A program made the position numbers and the translations under genes. The notes under the pieces were generated by a model that was given only the letters and a program-made list of their open reading frames with translations, was not told the origin of the DNA and searched no databases. From Clostridiales bacterium (GTDB lineage Bacteria; Bacillota; Clostridia; Christensenellales; CAG-314), in assembly GCA_022508375.1 (NCBI GenBank), contig JAFLVJ010000003.1, positions 62,001 through 126,000 of the forward strand: a stretch of 64,000 nt of DNA, read 5' to 3'. This document shows, one piece after another, positions 8,976 to 38,226 of the stretch; positions within the stretch are counted from its first letter, which is position 1, and each line of letters starts with the position of its first letter.

Positions 8976-9175
8976 AAAAAGTCCTCCTTCGTGAGATAAA
9001 TATAGCATACCAATTTGGCTGTTCAATGTCAATATTAAAACGACACATTTCTCGAAATTTTAACATCTAGCTGCAATCTATACTACGGCGCGCTATCGTC
9101 TATATGAGTCACAAGAAATATCGGATAAATATTTGAAACGGATACACAGGTCAAGGATAACAATAACCAACAGCT

Positions 9176-9233
9176 TACGTGACCGAGGTCAAACGTAAGT
9201 GCAACAATAGTTTTGCAACGTTTATAACGAGTG
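9176..9233 (+). repeat. Truncated copy of dispersed repeat family 1
   Basis: From TACGTGACCGAGG to the right end this stretch matches the right half of the copies at 26.0 and 33.0 kb (shared GACCGAGG, CAAACG, AAGTG, AACAA and GTTTATA). The left half and the left terminal arm are missing. It lies just before the terminator of the membrane protein gene. Confidence 0.6.
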
Positions 9234-16083: not shown

Positions 16084-16142
16084 AATTTTTTACAACTCCT
16101 TATTGTGAGTTTTTTCATACGTTTACAATTTAACTTTATACA

Positions 16143-16262
16143 GAAAGGCGCAGTCGCGCGCAAGAGAAGGCAACCGAGCGTCATCGCAGGGGAGTGTACT
16201 AGGCGTACATGACCCAAGCGACACGAAGGTTAACACACTATTGCGTGATGAATGTGGCTTTC
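16143..16262 (+). repeat. Dispersed repeat family 1, copy B
   Basis: About 120 nt between purC and nrdR. Terminal arms GAAAGGCGCA (16143) and TGTGGCTTTC (16253) pair with one mismatch and one G-T pair. The central hairpin is TGTAC-TAGGC-GTACA (16195-16209). The right arm lies within the last codons of purC. Confidence 0.75.
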
Positions 16263-16948
16263 AATCTTGTGAGTATTTCTTGATATTCCTGTTCCGGATT
16301 TTTGCCCTCGTTATCCAGACGGCGCAAAGTATCCTTATCCCAAAAACGGGCAACGTTGGGGGTGATTTCGTCGGCTACTACCAAGCGACCGCTTGTCCTG
16401 CCAAATTCGATCTTGAAGTCGGCTACGATTATCCCCACCTCTTTCATGAGGTCGGTCAATACCTTGTTGATACGCATGGCGTTATAGCACATGACGGACA
16501 TCTCTTCCTGCGTGCACAGTTCCATAGCGTAGGCGTGGTATTCGTTGATAACGGGGTCGCCTAGTGCGTCGTTTTTGTAGCAAAATTCCAAAACGGGAAA
16601 CTTGAGTTTTTTGTGATACTCCATGCCAAGTCTTTGTTGCATGGTGCCCGCCGAATAATTGCGTACTACTACTTCCATTGGAATCATTTCCGCAAGCTTG
16701 ACTACGCAATCGTTGTCGGAAAGTTTTTCAACGTAGTGGGTTGCAATATTGTTTTCCTCCAACACCTGCATCATGATGGCGTTTATTTCGTTGCTCAACT
16801 TGCCTTTGTTGGGGAAGTACATCTTGCGCTTGCCGTGATACATCATTGCGTCGTCCCTGAACTCGGCTATGGCGTGCGTTTTGCTTTCCGTAGCCCACAG
16901 GCGCTTGGTTTTACCTTCCGAAATAAGATTAAGCTTAGTCAGTTGCAT
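16238..16948 (-). CDS. purC: SAICAR synthetase (PurC)
   Basis: 236 aa, the usual bacterial length. The start is at 16948 (GAGGAGT upstream), giving MQLTKLNLISEGKTKRLW. Family motifs: GKxKxLW at the N-terminus, VVRNYSAGTMQQR near 95, and DFKIEFGRT near 200. It joins aspartate to CAIR in step 8 of purine synthesis. No other pur genes are nearby. It follows the GH95 gene by 58 nt and its 3' end overlaps a family 1 repeat. Confidence 0.97.
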   Translation of the reverse strand: MQLTKLNLISEGKTKRLWATESKTHAIAEFRDDAMMYHGKRKMYFPNKGKLSNEINAIMMQVLEENNIATHYVEKLSDNDCVVKLAEMIPMEVVVRNYSAGTMQQRLGMEYHKKLKFPVLEFCYKNDALGDPVINEYHAYAMELCTQEEMSVMCYNAMRINKVLTDLMKEVGIIVADFKIEFGRTSGRLVVADEITPNVARFWDKDTLRRLDNEGKNPEQEYQEILTRLKATFITQ

Positions 16949-17006
16949 AAATGTGACTCCTCGTAAAAAACTTTTGCCCGCATTACGCGATGAATGTACT
17001 TTCGAA

Positions 17007-19367
17007 CTATTTTGTTTTGTACACCAGTTCCACCGTACTACCGGCATAAACGGTAATTTCGAAATCTTTACCTTTGATTTTTTTCTTATCTACAGATGTT
17101 GCCTTGACAAGCTTCTTAACGTAGTCGGGCAGATACAAATGTATGTGCGCTTCCTTTTTGCTTTCCAGCTTGACTGTCAGTCTGCCCTTGTCGCTATCCT
17201 GTATTGCTGATACGACAACGTTGTTTTCCGCAACAAATTGACTGAACTTGATATTGCTCCATCCGTCGGGAATTGCAGGGAAAATCCTGACTATTTCGCC
17301 GCTTGAATACATAAGCATTTGCTGTACCACGTGCGTAAACGTCATATTGACGTTGAGTTGAATGGGAACTTCCGTTCCGCTACCGCATACGCCCATGTTT
17401 CGCCAGTCCTTATCGACGAAAGCGAGGTTATTCATCATGCAACCGCGCACCGCGCTTGTAAGACAGGAATATGCCCCGTTACCGTCGGCAAGTCGAGCAA
17501 AAACTGCACCCAGTACCGTCATATTGTAGCTATTTTGAGAGGAGGTTTCGTCCTTCTTTTTTTGCGCCGTGGTACGGTACTTATCTACAGTTTCGGCATC
17601 GGACAGCCAACTGACTTCGTCGCCGAAGTAAGCAGGATACAGCGTACCGTTGGATACGCCTGTGTAGTCAACGGATACTATGGAGTTGATAAATTCCTTA
17701 AAAGCTCCGTCGCTTGAGGTTTGCTTAACGGGCATAGCGTCCAGTAGCTTTTGCCAAGCGGCAACGTTGCCCTTAATATTGTGAATCTTGCAAGCTTCGA
17801 TGAGGTTAGTAAGTAAGTCCTTCGCCAAGTCGAAATCCAAGACGCTGTTTTTCGCAATCACAGGACGATCGGTAAAGTTGCTGTGCTCCGAAAGTCTCAA
17901 CGGTAACGCCGTGGGACTTATTTCCAACCCTTCGTCGCCGAACTTGATATAGTCAACGTAAAACGCCGCAACTTCCTTCATGAAGGGAATGAGCCTGTTT
18001 TTCAAAAACTTGGTGTTTTGACTGACTTTTGCGTACTTGTAGTACAAATTAGCCAAGAATGCCGCACAGCCGGAGTAATGCACCGCAAGCACGTCCGTAC
18101 TGCCCAGTCTTCCGGTATTGGGAGCGGCAACGACAGGCACCACTACGCCACGGCAACCGAATATACGCTGAGCGTTGTTGCGGTAATCGTCGAGGTTATT
18201 CCAAAAATACTCGAACGTGCGCTCCATGTAGGGGAGCATGTTACCCTGCAACATGTGCATATAATTCATTTGCATTTCACCACTTGCCGTTGCAAACGAC
18301 CTAGCGGGCAAGTAACTTCCGTTCCACAATCCGACGGGCGAAAATACTTCCGCTTTACCCTCGTCTGTCATGCAGGCAACGGACAGATATCTGCCGTACT
18401 TGTAAATCAACTCCGTAAGTTTGGAGGGCATCGAACCCGTTTCCGCTTCCAGTAGCATTTGTTCGATACTTTGCTCCTGCTCCTTGCCTAACTCGACAGT
18501 TGCGCTGTTGAACAGCTTGGAGTGAATTGACGCGTGCGGTTTGAAAAGCTTTTCGTAGCCGTCCTTAATGAGGGTCAGTTGCCCCTTGAGCTCGGAAATT
18601 TCGCGATCGCGAATACTGTTGACAAAAGTTTTGACAAGTATCAACAGTGACTGCGCGCGAGATATTTCAACGTGGTCGCTTTCCGCGCGAATACTTCCAC
18701 CCAATATATACACTTTCGCCACCGCGCCGAAATCGGCACCGTTATCGGGATTGCGCGCGGCAAAAGTAACGAACTGTCTGTCATATTTGGCTTCGACAGC
18801 TTCAAGTTGGTTGACAGCTTCAATGCTTTCGGGTAACGACACGCTGAGTTTAAGCGAAATGAAACCGCCGCCCTGTTTCGTCACGCGGTAAGCCACAAGA
18901 CCGTCCGCACGTGACACGAAAACACTGCGCTTGTACTTGGTGTCTGCTACAGCATACGACACCGTTGCTTCGCCGTTTTCCATATCCAGACAGCGCATAT
19001 AATCCTGCGTTTGTCCCGATTGCGAAAAAGTCATGTTAAACTGACAGACGGGTAAGGGATACTCCACGTGCGGTCGAAAGTTCCTTTGCAAAAGCGCCTT
19101 GGGCAATACGTCCTGCGCCCCCAAAAAGTCACCATCTTCGATACGCTGTTTCGTTTCCTCGATTCTGTCGGAAATGTCAGGTACTACCGTGGTATGACCC
19201 TTCCAGGATAGCGCTACGTCGTTGAGAAGTATTTTTTCCTCACAAGCTCCGCCAAATACGTTTGCTCCCAATTTGCCGTTGCCTAGATACAGCCCTTCGC
19301 GCCATAACTCCGTCCACCAACGTGAAGGCGTGTTAAATTTTAAAACGTTTGCGTTCTTTTCAGCCAT
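17007..19367 (-). CDS. Glycoside hydrolase family 95-like enzyme (alpha-fucosidase/galactosidase type)
   Basis: 786 aa; AAAGGTG lies 6 nt before the ATG. The N-terminus (RWWTELWREGLYLGNGKLGANVFGG, EEKILLNDVALSWKG) is the GH95 N-terminal beta-sandwich pattern, the middle is an alpha/alpha toroid with FGCRGVVVPV and STDVLAVHYSG, and the C-terminus ends in SGEIVRIFPAIPDGW followed by a beta domain. Family members release alpha-1,2-fucose or L-galactose from host or plant glycans. No signal peptide, so it would act on imported oligosaccharides. Several expected active-site residues cannot be checked by eye, and the sequence is divergent. Confidence 0.78.
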   Translation of the reverse strand: MAEKNANVLKFNTPSRWWTELWREGLYLGNGKLGANVFGGACEEKILLNDVALSWKGHTTVVPDISDRIEETKQRIEDGDFLGAQDVLPKALLQRNFRPHVEYPLPVCQFNMTFSQSGQTQDYMRCLDMENGEATVSYAVADTKYKRSVFVSRADGLVAYRVTKQGGGFISLKLSVSLPESIEAVNQLEAVEAKYDRQFVTFAARNPDNGADFGAVAKVYILGGSIRAESDHVEISRAQSLLILVKTFVNSIRDREISELKGQLTLIKDGYEKLFKPHASIHSKLFNSATVELGKEQEQSIEQMLLEAETGSMPSKLTELIYKYGRYLSVACMTDEGKAEVFSPVGLWNGSYLPARSFATASGEMQMNYMHMLQGNMLPYMERTFEYFWNNLDDYRNNAQRIFGCRGVVVPVVAAPNTGRLGSTDVLAVHYSGCAAFLANLYYKYAKVSQNTKFLKNRLIPFMKEVAAFYVDYIKFGDEGLEISPTALPLRLSEHSNFTDRPVIAKNSVLDFDLAKDLLTNLIEACKIHNIKGNVAAWQKLLDAMPVKQTSSDGAFKEFINSIVSVDYTGVSNGTLYPAYFGDEVSWLSDAETVDKYRTTAQKKKDETSSQNSYNMTVLGAVFARLADGNGAYSCLTSAVRGCMMNNLAFVDKDWRNMGVCGSGTEVPIQLNVNMTFTHVVQQMLMYSSGEIVRIFPAIPDGWSNIKFSQFVAENNVVVSAIQDSDKGRLTVKLESKKEAHIHLYLPDYVKKLVKATSVDKKKIKGKDFEITVYAGSTVELVYKTK

Positions 19368-25858: not shown

Positions 25859-25994
25859 GTCACTCCTTTATTTGTAACTTGTAATTACGTGAAGTTTCTC
25901 GCATTTGCTTGGAGTTGAGATAAGTCTAGTTGGGCAGTTGGTTAAGCGTACTGAGGTTATGATGCGTAATAATCAAAATATAATATATTTTCAC

Positions 25995-26119
25995 AGTGAG
26001 TGGCTAGAAGCGAGGTAGGCGAGGCGCACGCGGCCTGACCGAAGGGAGCGTACTAGGCGTACGTGACCGAGGGCAAACGCAAGTGGAACAAAGCATACCG
26101 AAGTTTATAGCCGCTCACT
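25995..26119 (+). repeat. Dispersed repeat family 1, copy C
   Basis: About 125 nt. Terminal arms AGTGAGTGGCTA (25995-26006) and TAGCCGCTCACT (26108-26119) pair over 12 positions with one G-T pair. Central hairpin CGTAC-TAGGC-GTACG. Flanked by two TGACCGA-type direct motifs. The right arm contains the stop codon of the Y-family polymerase gene. Confidence 0.8.
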
Positions 26120-27611
26120 TGCGATGTCCGCCGATCTGGTTATTACGCTCCATTGTCGTCGCGCCCTCCTCAAGATTCATTCCCTTGACAAGGGCATTTT
26201 TGCCGTACTTTTTGTGCACCTTCAACACTGTCTCTTGCAATGCTTCTTCCTTTTGCAGTTGTTCGGTTTCTTTATCCTTTTGCTTTTGCGCCCGGTCATA
26301 GTCGGTAAATATATCCATCTGAATATATTGCTCATGAGGTACTCTACCGCAATCCAACACGTGATTTGCAACGACGTACATGCGCCGTACAAGTAGCTTC
26401 GGGTCCACTATCCTGTCGTACAGTTCCATTACCGCTTGCGTTATCTGTTTGGTCGAGGACGTGTATCCTTTCAGATTGATGGAACCGTGCGCACTCTTGG
26501 GAATTTTCCTCCCATAGTGGTCAATTACCACTTCTCCCTTATATTGGGAACGGATTTCCTCGTTTGTAAGGTTTTCGATATCGTAGCCGACAGTCAGCAC
26601 CATTTGATTTGTTTTGAGGTGCTTATCTACCAAGTCCAGCACGAGCAAATCCGTCATTTCCTTGACTATCAACCTGCCCTTATCGAAAGTATAAGGCTCA
26701 CTCAGCACCTGTCCCGAACTTATGCTGTTGGTACTTGGTTTATAGCTCTTAATATCCGCCATAGTACAAGGCTCATAACCCCAAGCATGGTCGATGAGCA
26801 ACTCGGCATTGATCCCGAATAGTTTGTACAGTAGCTGTTCGTTGGTGAGCGAACAACGCGCAACGTCACCCATGGTAAACAATCCGTATTGGTTGAGTTT
26901 CCTCGCATATCCGCTACCCACGCGCCAAAAGTCGGTCAAAGGCGTATGCGACCACAACAGCTTGCGGTAACTCAGCTCGTCCAGTTCGGCAATACGTACC
27001 CCGTCTTTATCTTCGGGGCTGTGCTTGGCAACGATATCCATTGCCACCTTACATAGATACAAATTGGTACCTATACCTGCCGTTGCCGTAATGCCCGTCT
27101 CCGTCAAAACGTCCTTGATAATCTTAGAGGTCAACTCACGCGCGGTTAATTTGTATAGCTTAAGGTATTGCGTTGCATCAATAAATACTTCGTCTATCGA
27201 GTAAACGTGAATGTCCTCGGGCGCGACGTATTTTTGATATATCTTGAATATGCGCGTGCTGTATTCGACGTACAACCCCATACGGGGCGGCGCCACAACG
27301 TAATCCAATGCCAACTTGGGGTTAGATTTTAACTCGGTCGCGCTGTACGACTTGCCTTCCAAAGCCTTGTTAGGCGAATAAAACTTGCGCGTTGCGTTTA
27401 TACTGTTTACCTTTTGTATAACTTCGAACAGTCTTGCTCTACCCGGTAAGCCGTAGGCTTTCAATGATGGCGAAACAGCAAGGCAGATGGTCTTAGCCGT
27501 CCTGCTCTCGTCGGCAACTACAAGGTGGGTTGTCAATGGGTCAAGTCCGCGTTCCCTGCACTCGACAGACGCGTAAAACGATTTTAAATCTATCGCGATA
27601 TATTGACGCAC
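26115..27611 (-). CDS. Y-family DNA polymerase (translesion synthesis)
   Basis: 498 aa from a GTG at 27611 preceded by AAGGAGGT 9 nt away; this start puts YIAIDLKSFYASVE at the N-terminus as the family requires, whereas a longer frame to 27761 crosses the promoter. Catalytic acidic residues are seen in IDLKSFYASVE and YSIDEVFID near residue 108. TAGIGTNLYLCKVAMDI, an HhH region (WRVGSGYARKLNQYGLFTMGDVA) and a little-finger domain follow. The C-terminus is Lys/Gln/Glu-rich. It copies past damaged bases. A LexA-type box covers the predicted transcription start. Confidence 0.93.
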   Translation of the reverse strand: MRQYIAIDLKSFYASVECRERGLDPLTTHLVVADESRTAKTICLAVSPSLKAYGLPGRARLFEVIQKVNSINATRKFYSPNKALEGKSYSATELKSNPKLALDYVVAPPRMGLYVEYSTRIFKIYQKYVAPEDIHVYSIDEVFIDATQYLKLYKLTARELTSKIIKDVLTETGITATAGIGTNLYLCKVAMDIVAKHSPEDKDGVRIAELDELSYRKLLWSHTPLTDFWRVGSGYARKLNQYGLFTMGDVARCSLTNEQLLYKLFGINAELLIDHAWGYEPCTMADIKSYKPSTNSISSGQVLSEPYTFDKGRLIVKEMTDLLVLDLVDKHLKTNQMVLTVGYDIENLTNEEIRSQYKGEVVIDHYGRKIPKSAHGSINLKGYTSSTKQITQAVMELYDRIVDPKLLVRRMYVVANHVLDCGRVPHEQYIQMDIFTDYDRAQKQKDKETEQLQKEEALQETVLKVHKKYGKNALVKGMNLEEGATTMERNNQIGGHRK

Positions 27612-27700
27612 TGCTACCACCTCCTTTTCCGTTGCATTGTAGGTTACATGTTCTCTCCGCAATGACTTATTTCGAGCTTGCGCATAGCTCACAGCTATTG

Positions 27701-27714
27701 CGAACATAAGTTCT
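27701..27714. promoter_or_regulatory. LexA (SOS) box at the Y-polymerase promoter
   Basis: GAAC-ATAA-GTTC (27702-27713) matches the Gram-positive LexA core GAAC-N4-GTTC. It lies just downstream of the -10 box, over the expected transcription start, which is a good place for repression. Confidence 0.85.
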
Positions 27715-27719
27715 AATTT

Positions 27720-27748
27720 ATTATATATCAAACAAAAGTATTTGTCAA
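27720..27748 (-). promoter_or_regulatory. Consensus promoter of the dinB-yolD unit
   Basis: TTGACA (27743-27748), 17-nt spacer, TATAAT (27720-27725) on the minus strand: a perfect match to the sigma-A consensus. Confidence 0.88.
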
Positions 27749-27769
27749 AACTTATTGTCAACTTTTTTG

Positions 27770-30653: not shown

Positions 30654-31589
30654 ATGCCACTTGTTACAACGAAAGAAATGTTTGCAAAAGCCTACAAGGG
30701 CGGCTACGCTATCGGAGCGTTTAACGTAAACGATATGGAAATGGTTCAGGCCATAGTCGAGGCGGCAAACGAATGCCGTTCGCCCGTTATACTTCAGGTA
30801 TCGGCAGGCGCAAGAAAATACGCAAATCCCGTATATCTCAAGCACCTTGTACAGGCCGCTGTGGAAACGACGGATATCCCCATTGCTTTGCACTTGGACC
30901 ACGGCGCAGATTTCGATATATGCAAATCCAGCATTGACGGCGGATTTACTTCAGTAATGATTGACGCGTCTTCTAAACCCTGGGAGGAAAATATTGCCAT
31001 TACCAAGAGTGTTGTTGAATATGCTCACGCTCACGGCGTCGTTGTAGAAGCCGAACTAGGCAAACTTGCCGGCGTTGAGGACGACGTAAAGGTGGACGCT
31101 AAGGACGCAATGTTTACAAGCCCCGACGAAGTAGAAGAATTTACCGCCCGCACAGGCATTGACAGCCTTGCTATCGCTATCGGAACAAGCCACGGCGCTT
31201 ACAAGTTTAAGCCGGGACAAGACCCCAAGTTGCGTTTGGACATCTTGGAAGAAATCGGCAAACGTCTGCCCAACTTCCCCATTGTTTTGCACGGAGCAAG
31301 CAGCGTTCCTCAAGACAAGGTTGCAATTGTAAATCAATACGGCGGCTCCATGCCTAACGCAATCGGTATCCCCGAAAGCGAACTGAGCAAGGCTGCAAAG
31401 ATGGCAGTATGCAAGATCAATATTGACAGTGACCTGCGCGTCGCTTTCACCGCTGCCGTTCGTAAACACTTTGCCGAGAATCCCTCGCACTTCGATCCCA
31501 GACAATACCTTGGTGACGCTCGCGCCATGATGAAGGAAATGGTAAAGCACAAGATCATTAACGTTTTGGGAAGCGCCAATAAGGCATAA
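30654..31589 (+). CDS. fba: Class II fructose-1,6-bisphosphate aldolase
   Basis: 311 aa; GGAGGT lies 7 nt before the ATG. LHLDHGADFD carries the catalytic Asp82 and zinc ligand His83; further ligands are in VEAELGKLAG, GTSHGAYKF and VLHGASSVP; NIDSDLR binds the phosphate. It splits fructose-1,6-bisphosphate. One of the few plus-strand genes, divergent from gap, so two glycolytic genes share one control region. Confidence 0.97.
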   Translation: MPLVTTKEMFAKAYKGGYAIGAFNVNDMEMVQAIVEAANECRSPVILQVSAGARKYANPVYLKHLVQAAVETTDIPIALHLDHGADFDICKSSIDGGFTSVMIDASSKPWEENIAITKSVVEYAHAHGVVVEAELGKLAGVEDDVKVDAKDAMFTSPDEVEEFTARTGIDSLAIAIGTSHGAYKFKPGQDPKLRLDILEEIGKRLPNFPIVLHGASSVPQDKVAIVNQYGGSMPNAIGIPESELSKAAKMAVCKINIDSDLRVAFTAAVRKHFAENPSHFDPRQYLGDARAMMKEMVKHKIINVLGSANKA

Positions 31590-32931: not shown

Positions 32932-33019
32932 AATTCGTCCTTTATATCTATTTTTTTACCCCATTCTCGCTTAGCACACACATATTTCGAAAACAATGCT
33001 TTTTACGTTATTCATCCGT

Positions 33020-33142
33020 TGAAGGCGTTAGAAGCAAGTAAGACGAGGCGACCGCGGCTTGACCGACAGGAGCGTACTATACGTACGTAACTGAGGGCAA
33101 ACGTATGGGCAACAATGCATTACGATGCTTATTACGCCTTCA
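33020..33142 (+). repeat. Dispersed repeat family 1, copy D
   Basis: About 123 nt. Terminal arms TGAAGGCGT (33020-33028) and ACGCCTTCA (33134-33142) pair perfectly over 9 bp. Central hairpin CGTAC-TATAC-GTACG. Very similar to copy C between the arms (GACGAGGCGACCGCGG, TTGACCGA, GAGGGCAAACG). The right arm contains the stop codon of the HD-domain gene. Confidence 0.8.
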
Positions 33143-33734
33143 CCCCTCTGTCTTCGTCTAAATAGGTTGCCTCAAGATCCGCAATGTGTATAAGCAAAGC
33201 CAACTTGTACTTGGCAAGCGCTTCGCTTAATGCGTAACTACCACCTTTTACTCTTTCGTCAAAACCGCCCATGTGCCAGTTGATTGCCATAGCCTCCTCG
33301 ACGGTCAACTTCATATACTGGGTGATAATAAATACGGATTTTTCACCGTGTCCGTAAGGAAACTTTTCCTCCACCTTGTAAAACGGTTTTTTAACCCATT
33401 CGTAACCTTCCTTGACGTTGCGCAACTCAGTGACGTAGTAATTTATCTTGCACACATCATGCAGCAACCCGCATATTGCAATGCTTTCGTCCGAAATGAC
33501 ACTACTGTAATTGTCGCCGAATTCATTTCGAACCAGACTAAGCAAACGCTTATAGACGTTTAGCGAGTGTTGACACAAACCGCCCTGTTCGGCAAGATGA
33601 AACCGAGCAGACGCCGGTGCTGTGAAAAAGTCGCTGTTATTGATGTACTCCATCAAGGCTGACGCGCCATCGCGAGTTATATACTTGGTGTATATGTCGA
33701 TAAATTCCGCTTTGACAATATTTATATCAGGCAT
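33132..33734 (-). CDS. HD-domain hydrolase
   Basis: 200 aa; AAGGAG 8 nt before the ATG. HD-type ligands are in GGLCQHSLNVYKRLL near residue 51 and LLHDVCKI near 90, with HGEKS and NWHMGGFD giving the later metal contacts. The layout resembles the HD domain of YhaM-type exonucleases and related phosphohydrolases. A nucleotide or nucleic acid substrate is likely but unproven. It follows the hypoxanthine-DNA glycosylase gene by 32 nt and ends inside a family 1 repeat. Confidence 0.8.
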   Translation of the reverse strand: MPDINIVKAEFIDIYTKYITRDGASALMEYINNSDFFTAPASARFHLAEQGGLCQHSLNVYKRLLSLVRNEFGDNYSSVISDESIAICGLLHDVCKINYYVTELRNVKEGYEWVKKPFYKVEEKFPYGHGEKSVFIITQYMKLTVEEAMAINWHMGGFDERVKGGSYALSEALAKYKLALLIHIADLEATYLDEDRGVKA

Positions 33735-37088: not shown

Positions 37089-37214
37089 CTTTGAGAGCGT
37101 AGTCGCAGCTCAGACAGGCAACCGGTGGCAACTGACCGAAGTGTGTACTAGATGTACACGGCTGAGGCAGTTGACACACATAGCCTGTAATAGACGATGA
37201 ATGTGCTTTCAAAG
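37089..37214 (+). repeat. Dispersed repeat family 1, copy E
   Basis: About 126 nt between the two YitT genes. Terminal arms CTTTGAGAGCGTA (37089-37101) and TGTGCTTTCAAAG (37202-37214) pair over all 13 positions with three G-T pairs. Central hairpin GTGTAC-TAGAT-GTACAC. More like copy B than C and D in its left half (AGTCGC, GGCAACCG). The right arm contains the stop codon of YitT copy 2. Confidence 0.75.
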
Positions 37215-38132
37215 CTTGTAGCTCCTGTTAAATGTAGGACGGGAAAATATGTCGTTGACGTCCTTGACAAAGGTAAAAGCGTGTGGGTCGCGGTTTTTGA
37301 TAAGCGCCCTAAGATGCTTGCGTTGTCGGTACTGGATGATTACCATAACGACCTTCCTCGGCGGTGCGTTAGGGTCGGAGTTGACCACATCCATGCAGGT
37401 ACAACCGCGCTTGAAGTACCGAGTAATATCGGAAGCGATTTGTTCGTACTCGGTGGTAACAATCATGAACTTTTGGGGATGATTGAAACCGCGCTTGAGC
37501 ATACCCATACTGGTTGAACCTATAATGACGTACGTTATCGAGTATATAACAATGGCAATGTCCGCTCCAACTTTCCACATGACTATTATGCTACCACCGA
37601 AGGTGATGATAAAGTTAGAAATTAACAGCACCTTAGATAAGTCTATTTCGGGATGATACTTGGAAACTATCCTTGCAATAATTTCCGTACCGCCGTTACT
37701 GCCGTTTTGCTCGTAGGCGATATACATTGCCAAACCGATAAGGATACCGCCGAATATTATTGCAATCAATCGCGAATGATCGAATTTCAAATCGGGCAGA
37801 TACGCCAACACGGCAAGCGCAGCCGTACACACTATTGTTGACCATATCGTCTTGAATGTGAAATCGCCACGCAAAAAGATGAGTGAACAAATCAGCAAGG
37901 GAATATTGATTATTATGTACACAATGGACATAAGTTCGTCGTAACCCATGCTTGGAATAAGCGGATCGACAATGTAGGTTAAAGCGGAAGAAAGTCCGCT
38001 AAAACCGCCTGCAATCAAGTGATTGGGGTTGACAAACGTGTACAGTGATATAGCGTTTAATATCGCTGCGAACGTTACCAGTGCATATTCTTTGAGCTTA
38101 ATCAAAAAGCCTTTTGCCGTGATTTTTTTCAA
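37209..38132 (-). CDS. YitT-family membrane protein (DUF161 + DUF2179), copy 2
   Basis: 307 aa from a TTG at 38132 with GAGGA 8 nt upstream; the longer frame to 38216 crosses the leader terminator. Layout as in copy 1: N-terminal helices with GGFSGLSSALTYIVD, GGILIGLAMYIAYEQNGSNGGTEIIARIVSK, then a DUF2179 domain (RGCTCMDVVNSDPNAPPRKVVMVIIQYRQRKHLRALIKNRDPHAFTFVKDVNDIFSRPTF). Identity to copy 1 is modest, so the duplication is old. Preceded by a strong promoter and an intrinsic terminator in its leader. Confidence 0.85.
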   Translation of the reverse strand: MKKITAKGFLIKLKEYALVTFAAILNAISLYTFVNPNHLIAGGFSGLSSALTYIVDPLIPSMGYDELMSIVYIIINIPLLICSLIFLRGDFTFKTIWSTIVCTAALAVLAYLPDLKFDHSRLIAIIFGGILIGLAMYIAYEQNGSNGGTEIIARIVSKYHPEIDLSKVLLISNFIITFGGSIIVMWKVGADIAIVIYSITYVIIGSTSMGMLKRGFNHPQKFMIVTTEYEQIASDITRYFKRGCTCMDVVNSDPNAPPRKVVMVIIQYRQRKHLRALIKNRDPHAFTFVKDVNDIFSRPTFNRSYKL

Positions 38133-38153
38133 AGTTAAATCCTCGCGTGAAAA

Positions 38154-38189
38154 AGAGATTTTGCATCGTGATTTGCATACAAAATCTCT
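38154..38189 (-). terminator. Intrinsic terminator inside the YitT copy 2 leader (attenuator candidate)
   Basis: On the minus strand perfect 10-bp arms AGAGATTTTG/CAAAATCTCT, a 16-nt loop with an inner TGCA/TGCA pairing, then five T residues. It stands between the promoter and the start codon of YitT copy 2. Confidence 0.7.
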
Positions 38190-38197
38190 GTAAATTA

Positions 38198-38226
38198 AAT
38201 ATAATATTTCCACCAAAATATGTCAA
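38198..38226 (-). promoter_or_regulatory. Promoter of YitT copy 2
   Basis: TTGACA (38221-38226), 17-nt spacer, TATATT (38198-38203) on the minus strand. Confidence 0.75.

Follow-up and report, generated by a model that had tools for sequence, protein, structure and literature searches.

ERIC-related imperfect palindromes of a Clostridiales genome: conserved folding, movement and position at gene ends

ERIC repeats of Yersinia that lie beside stop codons reportedly have one common orientation, as De Gregorio is said to have described in 2005, and the YPAL palindromes of the same genus, reportedly described by De Gregorio in 2006, are said to occur just downstream of stop codons. Integron attC sites are kept more in structure than in sequence, and their folded strand is the one opposite to the coding strand, behind the stop codon. 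We know of no answer to the question of how ERIC is moved. Published accounts (PMC2229807, PMC10969869, PMC2267715 and PMC3110155) give the length and TA ends of ERIC in a review table, name Enterobacteriaceae and Vibrionaceae as its hosts and report an effect on transcript level where ERIC follows Yersinia genes at their 3' end (both in a 2024 review), describe orientation as crucial for this effect on mRNA (reviews), and treat the movement of ERIC and similar small repeats as a future question (2007 review). The REP unit measures 20–40 bp according to the abstract of PMC3733652.

The repeats described here came to notice in a window, the whole 64,000-nt stretch of a Clostridiales genome that was analysed, in which the original prediction placed four full copies with one shared order of motifs. 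Two covariance models were used, R1, built from 20 aligned copies of the host genome only, and R2, built from 92 matches with the Rahnella locus and any ERIC left out. A search with R2 recovered all four copies near the predicted coordinates, each on the plus strand; it gave no further match in the window at E≤1. Copies C (25994..26122, E=4.2e-28) and D (33018..33146, E=4.6e-24) are complete elements of a first subfamily, while the complete copies B (16140..16267, E=1.1e-16) and E (37089..37216, E=1.8e-4) look like a second subfamily, with copy E divergent (R1 E=0.0088 in the whole genome). Each copy folds better than its own shuffles (z of -4.00, -3.64, -2.53 and -4.87 for B, C, D and E, respectively), and the motif order is common to all four. 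By eye, the pair flanking GTAC in the central hairpin reads C-G in copies C and D but T-A in B and E; for the pair after it, B, C and D have G-T and copy E alone has G-C, as had been claimed. The terminal arms also carry many compensated changes, but the claim that they differ completely between copies was too strong, because they are variants of one consensus near TTTGA-GGCGG ... CCGCC-TCAAA. On the minus strand, the right arm of each copy contains the stop codon of an open reading frame. In copy C the arm supplies the TGA (26115..26117) of frame 26115-27761, which resembles a Y-family DNA polymerase below the curated cut-off; in the ORF list, the corresponding codons are 16238..16240 in copy B (frame 16238-17047), 33132..33134 in copy D (frame 33132-33734) and 37209..37211 in copy E (frame 37209-38216). 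A probable fragment reaching from core to middle lies at 9173..9207 on the plus strand (G000:C18:71173-71207; blastn against copy C, E=2.2e-6), and was not recovered by R2.

Covariation was tested by shuffles and by sliding one strand against its partner columns in alignment A2, which holds 20 of the 25 extracted host copies, second-subfamily and truncated copies being left out. Results demonstrated that 26 of the 42 pairs change on both sides (0 of 500 shuffles were as high), with two-sided changes in 162 cells compared to a shuffled mean of 59, and that the covariation score of 0.499 fell to 0.177 after shuffling and to 0.108 or less when the strand was slid by 1–3 columns. RNAalifold alone gave two-sided changes in 24 of 34 predicted pairs. 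The alignment spanning phyla had such changes in 39 of its 42 pairs (score 0.685 versus 0.166 shuffled), and a second, partly overlapping one had them in 40 of 42 (0.667 versus 0.173), both alignments having been fitted to the structure and thus leaning towards it. The suggestion that selection acts on a folded structure, originally made from covariation seen by eye, is therefore strongly supported by the shuffle, slid-partner and cross-phylum tests, and compensatory changes have preserved a long imperfect hairpin across a range from Clostridia to Proteobacteria and Bacteroidales.

The consensus fold is a single rod, one long imperfect hairpin with a unit of about 125 nt, and most copies match over 124–133 nt. 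Its outer helix of 17 pairs, with 90.9% of cells paired in A2, forms terminal inverted repeats, as in ERIC. Read by eye on the plus strand, the rod runs from variable outer arms through a conserved TAGAAGCGAG / CGA-GCTTATA step and further helices to the core; the helix inside the TAGAAGCGAG step alternates between GGTA/TACC and GCAA/TTGC, the middle helix is of several types, and the internal loops resemble tandem G-A mismatches. The core, GGAGY-NTAC-loop-GTAN-RTGACCGAG, is conserved in A2, A6 and A7, and one of its pairs is nearly fixed as G-U (17/20 copies; 97/100 in the cross-phylum set). Since the opposite strand would give U-C and A-C mismatches, the plus strand appears to be the folded face. 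In the outer arms, minus the three terminal pairs, G-U exceeded A-C at 20:9 (p 0.06), 71:35, 51:19 and 51:21 in four partly overlapping alignments. Against this, over all stems there was no strand preference in A2 (29:30) or A4 (158:151), though the ratio was 132:74 in A6, and in the inner stems of A2 the bias was reversed (7:18). The model to which A4, A6 and A7 were fitted favours G-U. Because the asymmetry is consistent in the outer arms only, we give it little weight, and our confidence that the plus strand is the one that folds is moderate.

Several copies depart from this plan. An extra left-half module with CGACCCCCAGCG is found in L099:1501-1676 of the window genome and in L018:2722-2870, and L107, at 176 nt, resembles the L099 copy in being equal to it in length. 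Short copies of 77–91 nt (L108:1501-1577, L109:1501-1583, L103:1501-1591 and L087:1501-1577) are probably internal deletions, since they match the model from end to end; L087 has lost the core and kept the arms. Double cores in the same orientation, 122–125 nt apart in L263, L196, L206 and L211 and 175 nt apart in L195, represent tandem or nested copies.

The family extends well beyond the window. The host genome (G000; 1.63 Mb in 24 contigs, 89% complete, with Firmicutes-like genes) gave 58 R1 matches at E≤1, and 53 when the cut-off was tightened to E≤0.001; 26 of the 61 genomes in a search of relatives, its own included, had a match at E≤0.01. Copy number within the genus is uneven, ranging from 0 to 58, with 38 matches in the sister species G023, 12 and 10 in two other members and none in five, and two genomes of other families had 26 and 12. 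The core pattern matched at least 119 stretches in a sequence collection, for which we estimate about 1.4 chance matches by our own arithmetic. Many phyla appear among the titles; those of the 80 stretches listed include Clostridia, Bacteroidales, Deltaproteobacteria, Desulfobacterales, Lysobacterales, Lentisphaerae, Gracilibacteria, Sporosarcina, Seleniivibrio, Rahnella and others. The host-trained R1 gave 82 matches at E≤0.001 on these 80 loci. R2 found copies in 18/18 genomes, all preselected for a core-pattern match and all except Rahnella having a locus among the sources of alignment A6. Counts in these genomes are lower bounds, with 150 candidates scored in each: at least 66 copies in Porphyromonas somerae, at least 141 in a Desulfobacterales bin, at least 10 in Rahnella, 1 to 3 in each of five others, and, in a Deltaproteobacteria bin, an R2 match for every one of the 150 candidates scored. 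Viral carriage was considered and rejected, the single IMG/VR match lying inside an open frame and being judged a chance match.

Examination of the flanking genes revealed a marked asymmetry. We counted copies whose right end had, between -15 and +25 nt, the stop codon of an opposite-strand frame 100 codons or longer, and compared them with copies at whose left arm a gene on the same strand ended; these counts avoid greedy gene calls, which misassign some neighbours. Among copies of at least 100 nt in four genomes, a stop codon lay in or beside the right arm in 38/49 and at the left arm in 0/49 in G000, with corresponding values of 20/24 and 1/24 in G023, 5/10 and 0/10 in G050, and 1/13 and 0/13 within the tested range in G041, where the gene stop is often about 78 nt out and copies sit in a longer composite. 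Other genomes pooled, with 85 of 102 matches used, gave 38/85 right and 7/85 left, 4.6 being expected from random positions. Individual values were 16/23 and 3/23 in the Deltaproteobacteria bin, 8/24 and 0/24 in Desulfobacterales and 2/9 and 1/9 in RA.bin91, with no right-arm stop codon in Sporosarcina (0/3) or Seleniivibrio (0/2). Core-pattern loci, of which 61 of 87 were counted after removal of duplicates and the requirement of 400 nt on both sides, gave 25/61 right and 3/61 left, with 2.3 expected. Copies tend to sit at the 3' end of an opposite-strand gene, whose stop codon the right arm often supplies, and this rule is uneven among genomes. By eye, the composite of G041 (copies L147-L157) is rather uniform, with a conserved left extension and, on its right side, a hairpin that resembles a terminator and has runs of T on both strands. 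Also by eye, a copy in L065, near 1460-1650, lies in sense orientation between a promoter-like TTGACA/TATAAT and a ribosome binding site with ATG.

Comparison with G023, which is syntenic at 75–83% identity, demonstrates that the element is mobile, as seen from occupied and empty sites. At window position 25994, G000 has the element (copy C) and the matching G023 place lacks it, the protein ending in QIGGHRK plus the arm TGA in the former and in QIGGHKK plus TAA in the latter. At 31589 the element is present in G023 and absent in G000, with ANKA followed by the arm TGA in G023 and by TAA and a terminator in G000. In a further pair, L119/L047, the occupied copy ends in SKS and the empty one in QNTQKK (all protein ends read by eye). 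The pair L120/L042 was dropped as an empty site because G000 seems to keep an element remnant there; this decayed copy, at about 527-574 of L042, seemingly retains only the start of the right arm, behind the stop codon. Copy D also occurs at the matching G023 place, with different but compensated arms. When 24 G023 elements were compared, 6 had an element at the matching G000 site, several of them with different, compensated arms, and many others had no counterpart in the G000 sequence compared.

The search for a mobiliser covered 29 genomes, in which Y1_Tnp, RVT_1 and DDE_3 were found in 7, 7 and 3, respectively, and in neither G000 nor G023. None of the three tracks element copy number: Y1_Tnp was not found in the many-copy genomes G000, G023, G050 and G066, and is present in G018 and G021, where the element has no copy. 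Because these genomes are drafts, such absences are no proof. A search of G041 for an autonomous parent with a 291-nt composite gave 65 matches (40/87 candidates scored), among which no end pair flanked a gene-sized insert. No constant direct repeat of the TA-duplication kind was found at the boundaries of 73 copies from G000 and G023, whose ends are uncertain by a few bases, and none was seen by eye at the compared occupied and empty sites; weak direct-repeat peaks in 95 other copies fell inside the element or at unmatched offsets. Since no target duplication was detected, we call the repeats ERIC-related, and not ERIC.

The original prediction did not recognise the family, and this holds for Rfam, where it matches none of the described families (no match in the window at the gathering threshold, and none at E≤10 for one typical copy), but the family is related to a described repeat, ERIC. 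R2 matches a Rahnella repeat at E=1.3e-10, with every one of the 129 model positions aligned. It also finds two ERIC loci of E. coli, with E-values of 2.8e-7 and 6.2e-7 in 20 kb, and a 2-kb E. coli stretch lacking ERIC, used as a control, gave nothing; the E. coli alignment rests mainly on the core, and R1 scored the Rahnella repeat at E=0.055 only. Because a model free of ERIC finds both, the window repeats are best read as a Clostridia branch of an ERIC-type superfamily. A direct match to a described repeat, which had been named in advance as evidence against the prediction, thus exists at the level of this superfamily and is not a plain copy, the window family differing from ERIC in hosts, most of its sequence, arms and breadth.

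Like ERIC (also IRU or RU-1), which is about 127 bp long, the repeats are intergenic and dispersed, and form a single long imperfect hairpin with terminal inverted repeats, here the 17-pair outer helix. The core GGAGC-hairpin-GTGAC is common to the window family, Rahnella and E. coli, and the one orientation beside stop codons (38/49 right versus 0/49 left in G000) is a further likeness. Ten E. coli ERIC places that we examined represent five distinct loci; at cusC, ybhI and narK, opposite-strand gene ends lie 44–49 nt past the ERIC core, in the same geometry, and the pgk-fbaA and mobH-ardC loci are without it. On the other side, the window family is hosted in other phyla, has other arms and middle helices, and shows no detected TA duplication, its ends being uncertain by a few bases. 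Compared by description, YPAL resembles it as a palindrome just past stop codons. The attC sites resemble it in that structure is conserved above sequence and that the folded strand is complementary to the coding strand and follows a stop codon, but the window copies are dispersed singly behind ordinary genes, and no attC R-box motifs were seen in the family by eye. The family works like ERIC and is probably its kin.

Taken together, these observations are best explained by a non-autonomous mobile element, an imperfect ERIC-type palindrome of about 125 bp, a reading to which we assign a probability of roughly 0.7 jointly with the steps that follow. The folded plus strand, whether single-stranded DNA or RNA, would be recognised by the mobilising machinery through its GGAGY-hairpin-RTGACCGAG face, and the element would be actively targeted to gene ends, where it would be inserted between the last codons and the terminator. 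Stop codons in the right arm may make insertion in one orientation nearly harmless, which would partly explain the orientation bias. Once inserted, the element would form part of the transcribed 3' UTR, where it may influence the decay of the mRNA, an effect that has been reported for ERIC in Yersinia; we take this to be a probable side effect and not the reason for the shape of the element.

Other explanations can be set against the same observations. The covariation could arise from the mutation process without selection, through template switching or gene conversion in which one arm serves as the template for correcting the other. It is in keeping with this that outer arms differ between matching sites and are nevertheless perfectly compensated, and that A2 and A4 show no wobble preference over all stems, but inner helices covary too, conservation extends to the bases of the internal loops and core that are unpaired or mismatched, and the fixed G-U pair stays uncorrected in 97/100 sequences; we consider this account a serious one, if unlikely. 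A chance resemblance to ERIC, in which an unrelated family converged on a short hairpin core, would fit the fact that the shared part is mainly the core and that R1 alone gives the Rahnella repeat E=0.055. The R2 alignment of that repeat over all 129 positions (E=1.3e-10) and the stop-codon geometry common to 3/5 distinct E. coli ERIC loci argue against convergence, which we regard as unlikely, and homology is the simpler reading.

It is also conceivable that the hairpin is a 3' UTR element kept for the host, stabilising or destabilising mRNA or aiding termination, with its spread incidental. At the sites read, copies do lie after the stop codon and ahead of the terminator, and the 2024 review passage on transcript level in Yersinia concerns just such 3'-end ERICs. 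However, it is the strand complementary to the mRNA that shows more wobble pairs in the outer arms, members of a single genus hold anything from 0 to 58 copies, and many different genes precede the copies, which makes a host function of this kind quite improbable. A structured plus-strand non-coding RNA, antisense to the gene next to it, could account for the plus-strand wobble bias, the G-A loops (seen by eye) and the sense-oriented L065 copy between promoter-like sequence and start codon (by eye); as Rfam gives no match, no constant promoter was seen in the left flanks and locations vary between species, we think it very improbable. The proposal that a Y1 transposase of the RAYT type moves a REP-like palindrome draws on the high copy number and intergenic position that the family shares with REP/RAYT systems, and on GTAG within some arms (by eye). 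It is largely refuted and hardly credible, in view of a unit of about 125 nt compared to the 20–40 bp of REP and the lack of co-occurrence with Y1_Tnp, which was found in 7/29 draft genomes, including the copy-free G018 and G021, and in none of G000, G023, G050 and G066.

Beyond the preferred reading of a mobile ERIC-type palindrome, we tentatively suggest a wider one, on balance doubtful: an ancient superfamily of mobile hairpins, pan-bacterial in range, would include ERIC as one of its branches. Its members would move through a folded single-stranded plus-strand intermediate, by means of machinery other than Y1, IS630-type or reverse transcriptase, and would be delivered to gene ends, where right-arm stop codons would render insertion nearly harmless. 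No description of a wider ERIC-type family was recognised in the open-access literature searched. A covariance model is now available to annotate such repeats. Placing ERIC within a superfamily of many phyla, with more than 100 copies in some genomes, would allow co-occurrence genomics to be applied to the enzyme, and the results suggest that one-orientation targeting of stop codons is a trait of the superfamily, extending beyond Yersinia or the enterobacteria.
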